Origin: Bifiguratus adelaidae
Taxonomy: Eukaryota > Mucoromycota > Endogonomycetes > Endogonales
Direction of reading: 5' to 3'
Assembly: GCA_002261195.1 (NCBI GenBank)
Contig: MVBO01000015.1
Coordinates: 124,001 to 188,000, forward strand
Length of the DNA: 64,000 nucleotides
Shown here one piece after another: positions 22,823 to 23,341 of the stretch. Each line of letters opens with the position of its first letter. The first letter of the stretch is position 1. Both the position numbers and the translations under genes were made by a program. The notes below the pieces were generated by a model, which worked only from the letters and a program-made list of their open reading frames with translations, was not told where the DNA came from and ran no database searches.

Positions 22823-23341
22823 ATGCAAGTCTTCGTCAAGTCTCTCCAGGGCAACACCCTTGCCCTTGATGTTCAAGGTTCTACTCCCGTCTCGGCGGTC
22901 AAATCATTGATCCAGGAGCGTGAAGGTATGGCCACTTACGGCAGGTCATGACAGCTTGCTCATTAGGCGACAGGTTTCCCTAGCCACCTTCAATGCTTGT
23001 CCTACGCCGGAAAGCCTCTTGAGGATACTCAAGCTCTCGAGCTTTATGGCATTACCTCCAACGCCACTCTTCATTTGAATGCCGAACTTCTCGGTGGTGG
23101 TAAGAAGCGTAAGAAGAAGACGTACACTACTCCCAAGAAGATCAAGCACAAGAAGAAGAAGGTCAAGCTCGCCGTCTTGAAATACTACAAGGTGGATGAG
23201 AGCGGCAAGATCACCCGCTTGAGACGAGAGTGCCCCAACAACACTTGTGGTGCTGGTATCTTTATGGCCTGGCACCACGATCGCCAATACTGTGGCAAGT
23301 GTGGATTGACCTATGTCTTCAAGAACGAGGGTAAGGCTTAA
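22823..23341 (+). CDS. RPS31: Ribosomal protein eS31 fused to a divergent ubiquitin-like leader
   Basis: Two exons, 22823..22925 and 22974..23341, 156 aa. Residues 77-156 are a normal eS31 (S27a): [31 protein letters not shown] and a four-cysteine zinc finger (CPNNTC and YCGKC). Residues 1-76 align without gaps to ubiquitin but only about half are identical. MQVFVK, K27, G47-K48, LEDTQAL, TLHL and the terminal GG remain. I44 is Ser, V70 Asn, R42 Cys, R72 Glu, R74 Leu, and K11, K29, K33 and K63 are replaced. The leader is therefore probably a folding/chaperone module cleaved after GG and not functional ubiquitin. The intron (GTATGG donor) lies at the G35 codon. Confidence 0.93.

Follow-up and report, generated by a model that had tools for sequence, protein, structure and literature searches.

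Ubiquitin is found fused to the ribosomal proteins eS31 and eL40, for reasons that have been called enigmatic (PMC8122580). According to PMC10457151, diverged versions of the eS31 precursor (Ub-S27a) were reported by Jones and Candido (1993) for Caenorhabditis and by Catic and Ploegh (2005) for 12 more species, of which nine are protists; that paper also finds them across Plasmodium and relays the suggestion that the Giardia leader retains a chaperone role only (Catic et al. 2007). The gene considered here encodes eS31 behind a ubiquitin-like leader and lies at positions 22823-23341 of the window, namely the whole stretch of 64,000 nucleotides of the fungus Bifiguratus adelaidae that was analysed (contig MVBO01000015.1, positions 124,001 to 188,000). 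An earlier note on this DNA proposed that the leader is not functional ubiquitin and likened it to the diverged leaders of nematodes and of FUBI-eS30, both of which are on record (for Caenorhabditis, PMC10457151; for FUBI, also on a 40S protein, PMC10611586). Comparison with related fungi demonstrates that the eroded leader is not the oddity of one fungus, being common to all 61 full-length leaders that were tabulated. It is probably a folded domain that is cleaved off, is kept for the output of eS31 and is unable to enter the ubiquitin pathway. In the literature searched, no account of these fungal leaders was found, although a fungus may be among the three non-protists of Catic and Ploegh. 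One survey admitted no domain below 80% identity to yeast ubiquitin (PMC8122580) and, because of this cut-off, would miss leaders with 41-55% identity.

The gene is a two-exon eS31 precursor on the + strand (22823-23341, 156 amino acids), with the following features, of which the exons and the stop codon are read from the translation of the spliced form:

22823..22925, + strand: exon 1, which codes for leader residues 1-34 and ends with the first nucleotide of codon 35
22926..22973, + strand: intron of 48 nucleotides, GT-AG, within the leader at codon 35 (phase 1); its acceptor is the only one tried that gives an open frame
22974..23098, + strand: leader part of exon 2, residues 35-76, with the tail N70-A71-E72-L73-L74-G75-G76
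23099..23338, + strand: eS31 (RPS31/RPS27A) ribosomal part, 80 amino acids, of which 79 are shared with the paralogue (from Pfam PF01599 and paralogue comparison)
23339..23341, + strand: stop codon TAA

The coordinates of the whole of exon 2 (22974-23341) count the stop codon in. Two other splice readings were rejected, as the leaders that they give are out of frame (20 and 21 identities), whereas the acceptor ending at 22973 gives an open frame. The likeness of the leader to ubiquitin is not due to chance, since the protein matches the Pfam families ubiquitin (E = 1.6e-19) and Ribosomal_S27 (PF01599, E = 6.3e-26). It also matches a solved chain (9bh5_Af) named 'Ubiquitin-like protein 1-ribosomal protein eS31 fusion protein'.

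The gapless alignment over 76 residues, for which the earlier note had estimated about 36 identities, gave exactly 36 on recounting (47% to human ubiquitin), and every substitution listed there is found in the translation (R42C, I44S, V70N, R72E, R74L, K11N, K29L, K33R and K63S), as are the retained K27 and K48 and the GG followed by eS31. K6, L8, F4 and H68 are also retained. What is kept (the core, F4, Q2, T12, L8, L73 and GG) corresponds to the fold and to much of the cleavage handle, and what is altered (R72, often R42, I44, V70, K63, K11 and K29) corresponds to entry into the pathway and its reading. The leader has the C-terminal GG of functional ubiquitin, but the two arginines contacted by the ubiquitin-activating enzyme (E1), R42 and R72, are C42 and E72, and the patch formed by L8, I44, H68 and V70 is left with L8 and H68 only. 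As in the diverged Ub-S27a precursors, the domain that precedes eS31 appears to have the ubiquitin fold: the predicted model of a close relative shows the beta-grasp, and the positions that we take to form the ubiquitin core are conserved.

A six-frame search of the assembly (18.6 Mb in 286 contigs, with no completeness figure) yielded two eS31 matches, the window gene (A) and a paralogue (B) on contig C35 with the intron at the same place. The leader of B is identical to ubiquitin at 33 of 76 positions and also carries C42, S44, N70, E72 and L74, so that the second RPS31 with canonical ubiquitin, for which the earlier note advised a search, was not found in this assembly. The leaders of A and B share 50 of 76 residues (Nei-Gojobori non-synonymous divergence, dN, 0.27; synonymous divergence, dS, 3.7, saturated), against 79 of 80 for the eS31 parts (dN, 0.03; dS, 0.74). 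Divergence is, therefore, much stronger in the leader than in the ribosomal part, as is typical of diverged Ub-S27a. Besides the eS31 gene, a comparison of 22 kb from the window with the 7 kb surrounding the paralogue showed no common open frame at E 1e-4. The presence of two copies, along with an assembly in 286 contigs of unstated completeness, could suggest that the gene is a pseudogene or an artefact, with a normal Ub-eS31 elsewhere. However, the two copies found both have an open frame and a diverged leader, the eS31 parts agree and so do the rows of 29 genera, so that this explanation is hardly credible and was rejected together with that of a hidden canonical Ub-eS31. An assembly error, in particular, is very unlikely, the same kind of leader being found on another contig and in those genera.

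The other ubiquitin genes found in this genome are near-canonical as judged by eye from translations, a feature shared with diverged Ub-S27a: both eL40 matches are preceded, across an intron, by near-canonical ubiquitin ending in LRLRGG, and two tandem near-canonical units (polyubiquitin) are present at the end of contig C23. The proposal that the cell obtains ubiquitin from other genes is in keeping with their presence in the same assembly. A NEDD8/Rub1-like gene (L018, G000:C23:15460-15579, - strand) was also detected, apparently split by an intron, with the tail LHLVLALRGG (A72, R74 kept) and two stops inside its match in the family search. The eS30 gene (L011, G000:C60:19361-19528), the start exon of which is unplaced, has no ubiquitin-family match on its contig and no FUBI-type leader was seen.

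Related leaders were collected by a leader-only search (42 proteins) and by searches with the eS31 part, which favour no leader type and of which the best 120 of 2662 and the best 120 of 1574 matches were taken, a canonical Mucorales Ub-eS31 below these being formally still possible. The 148 proteins comprise the 146 found and the products of A and B. Two have no junction match, namely P0012 (an 88-residue fragment from Mucor ambiguus with a diverged leader) and P0128 (with a canonical leader), and the table thus has 146 rows, partial ones included. Full-length leaders from A, B and organism-labelled relatives form a set of 61, which contains some odd gene models and in which the relatives belong to 29 genera. 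With genera assigned to what we take to be their fungal groups, the diverged full-length leaders are 39 of 39 in Mucorales (19 genera), 3 of 3 in Umbelopsis, 3 of 3 in Calcarisporiella and 14 of 14 in relatives of Mortierella (8 genera), in addition to A and B, and their identity to ubiquitin is 41-55% throughout. The organism-labelled matches of the leader-only search were all from Mucorales, Umbelopsis or Calcarisporiella. The view that perfect ubiquitin is the norm in fungal RPS31 agrees with the full-length leaders of chytrids (four) and Zoopagomycota (two), at 95-100% identity, but not with the group just described, and five full-length Glomeromycotina leaders range between 64% and 95%. 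Half-eroded leaders with 64-78% identity, apparently apart from the main group, were observed in P0061, P0063, P0064, P0066 and P0068, i.e. in Acaulospora, two Paraglomus, Diversispora and one row grouping with Acaulospora.

Within the 61 leaders GG, F4 and L43 are invariant, L8 is found in 57, K48 in 59 and K27 in 56, and position 36 is occupied by I (44), L (13), V (3) or F (1). Eighteen leaders retain R42 and three retain L71, the latter being lost in 58. I44 is replaced by S (58) or T (3), V70 by N (59) or S (2), R72 by E (44), D (14) or A (3), and R74 by L in all of them. Non-ubiquitin residues are near fixation at S7 (60), R33 (61), S44 and N70, and the tail follows the nearly fixed consensus N-x-[E/D/A]-L-L-G-G. 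The leaders of P0023, P0027, P0028 and P0029 (Rhizopus, Gilbertella, Choanephora and Blakeslea) look by eye like chimaeras in which the beginning of one Mucorales paralogue runs into the end of the other, which may reflect gene-model errors or exchange between paralogues.

By taking these features into account, it can be proposed that the leader ceased to be ubiquitin, a change that probably dates back to an ancestor of these fungi. It would still adopt the beta-grasp, as in the model predicted for a close relative, and a USP-type protease would cut after GG, gripping the conserved F4, L8, L73 and GG. Before cleavage the leader would help in cis the folding and output of eS31, as in yeast Ubi3, where ubiquitin raises eS31 output in cis (PMC8122580). 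Once freed, it would escape both charging by Uba1 and reading by ubiquitin receptors, owing to the loss of R72 (often with R42) and of I44/V70; in published mutants R42E and R72E together block wild-type Uba1, with activation lowered almost 1,500-fold (PMC5290280). Ubiquitin itself would be provided by the near-canonical Ub-eL40 and polyubiquitin genes seen in this genome. The predicted fold and the sequence back this proposal; cleavage, escape from charging and chaperoning in cis are inferred from sequence and from published work on yeast, human cells and Giardia, so that the idea of the earlier note that the leader became a pure chaperone is supported in part.

The Ub-eS31 of Giardia is reported to stay uncleaved (PMC8122580), and the leader could likewise persist on eS31 as a permanent extension. 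However, the Giardia case is ascribed to an altered GG junction, whereas GG is found here in 61 of 61 leaders, and the uncleaved precursor of yeast is unstable and much less efficiently incorporated (PMC8122580), which leaves this alternative very improbable. A freed leader ending in LLGG might also be a new ubiquitin-like modifier, conjugated by a dedicated E1 or a borrowed one, as could be suggested by the invariant GG, by the several non-ubiquitin residues that are nearly fixed and by the NEDD8-like gene of this genome, which is also without R72 (LALRGG). The difference between leaders A and B, at 26 of 76 residues within a single genome, argues against this, and GG is required for cleavage in any case, so that conjugation appears unlikely, if less so than a permanent extension.

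The cleaved and inert leader would, furthermore, be held in that state by selection and not by drift alone, as suggested by the acidic or small residue at position 72 along with Leu at position 74; this is the weakest step of the proposal. In its extended form, which is put forward only tentatively, the leader is a dedicated ubiquitin-like domain proof against conjugation, L74 and the acidic or small residue 72 were selected so that a by-product formed in step with 40S subunits stays off the ubiquitin cascade, and loss of R74 is a general and recurring first step in fungi and other eukaryotes. The 146 rows, all with letters at both sites, divide into 58 that retain the two arginines, 82 that have neither, six that lack R74 only and none that lacks R72 only. 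The six rows are two from Paraglomus, two grouping with Acaulospora and two nearly canonical ones (72 and 71 of 76), and are suggestive of R74 being lost before R72 in eS31 leaders, in four or five lineages at most. The rule breaks outside eS31 leaders, with the NEDD8-like gene of this genome having lost R72 and kept R74. All rows but one (145 of 146) retain GG, the exception being GA in a 103-residue fragment, P0126 (tail NEDLLGA). In the literature searched, no account was found of a nearly fixed non-ubiquitin tail or of R74 loss without that of R72.

Selection has to be weighed against passive decay, in which exchange of sequence with polyubiquitin ended, the leader drifted within the constraints of fold and cleavage, and the shared tail goes back to a single ancestor. 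For nematodes and protists, decay is the interpretation in print (Catic and Ploegh 2005, cited in PMC10457151); it agrees with the proposal from fold to ubiquitin supply and competes only with the claim of selection for inertness. The spread of the Glomeromycotina leaders speaks for decay, and the few lineages with R74-only loss could still be due to chance. On the other hand, variation is lower in the tail columns 70-76 (0.40 bits) than in the non-core columns (1.31 bits), even if columns 70-74 average higher (approx. 0.56 bits) because the invariant GG lowers the former value; residue 72 switches among E, D and A, with no return to R in any of the 61 rows; and R72-only loss is absent from all 146 rows. 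Passive decay retains a substantial chance, somewhat short of even.

Trees were calculated from 84 rows, with 13 organism-labelled rows excluded (partial, duplicate or odd) and 17 others added by choice. In the whole-precursor tree a branch supported at 99/92 separates 59 diverged rows (54 from this group and the window, and five others) from 25 rows (canonical, Glomeromycotina and others). This tree fits one loss, provided that the root is on the side of the 25 rows, although it includes the leader columns themselves, and a single origin of the tail, as decay supposes, would be compatible with it. The tree from the eS31 columns (84 rows, 81 columns) is poorly resolved; on it the state at position 74 needs nine changes and that at position 72 needs 10, and one diverged clade is not rejected (approximately unbiased test, p-AU 0.30). 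Leaders of eS31 outside the main tree group that have also lost R72 and R74 were noted in P0121, P0124, P0127, P0137 and P0142 (with tails such as LDGG, LPGG and LLGG).

Several points weigh against the proposal that the leader is a cleaved and inert folding aid. The block of Uba1 is known for the R42E and R72E pair, but the leader has C42 with E72, and R42 stays in 18 of the 61 leaders. USP36 contacts L71 of ubiquitin and reaches R72 and R74 through glutamates (PMC10611586); with L71 lost in 58 leaders and both arginines in all 61, cleavage by a USP36-like enzyme is not assured. K48 and K27 would be needless in a pure spacer, although both may be structural, and the near fixation of S7, R33, S44 and N70 goes beyond the apparent need of a folding aid. 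Finally, the diverged group needs six changes on the weak eS31-only tree, and the rows share ancestry, so that their counts are not independent.

With regard to why ubiquitin is fused to ribosomal proteins, ubiquitin supply and chaperoning are the two candidate reasons, and these fungi provide a natural separation of the two roles, since the eS31 fusion is kept in 29 genera and in both paralogues while the leader no longer resembles ubiquitin. Should the R74-first order hold in a wider sample, it would be a simple sequence mark of ubiquitin fusions quitting the ubiquitin pool. Conjugates of the leader, if any, would escape routine proteomics because without R72 and R74 no standard tryptic diGly remnant is formed.

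Compared with the canonical Ub-eS31 (yeast UBI3, human RPS27A), the window gene has the same architecture, GG junction and eS31, but its leader has lost contacts to E1 and receptors. NEDD8/Rub1 has A72 with R74 kept, a combination that is not found in the window leader (E72, L74). FUBI-eS30 (FAU) is alike in carrying on a 40S protein a diverged leader that is cleaved at GG and in having Leu 72 for ubiquitin Arg 74, the same exchange as L74, which USP36 tolerates (PMC10611586); it differs in being fused to eS30 rather than eS31, in a two-residue deletion around Leu 8 and in a Gly in place of L71 (PMC10611586). The Giardia lamblia S27a leader is also diverged but is reported uncleaved, whereas GG is intact in the window gene. 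A close likeness is also seen to Plasmodium, other protists and Caenorhabditis (UBL-1), where a strongly diverged N-terminal ubiquitin-like leader precedes a more conserved eS31 (PMC10457151); the P. falciparum leader matches its own polyubiquitin at 24 of 76 positions (PMC10457151), compared with 36 of 76 for the window leader and human ubiquitin. The present case differs in being fungal, in comprising every organism-labelled row of the four groups tabulated and in the two paralogues of one genome; the nearly fixed tail is given here as a fungal trait, nematode and Plasmodium tails being outside the comparison. Diverged eS31 leaders being already known elsewhere, the window gene represents a new, fungal case that is broad in taxa: ordinary in kind, it is notable for its breadth, its nearly fixed tail and a possible R74-first order of loss.
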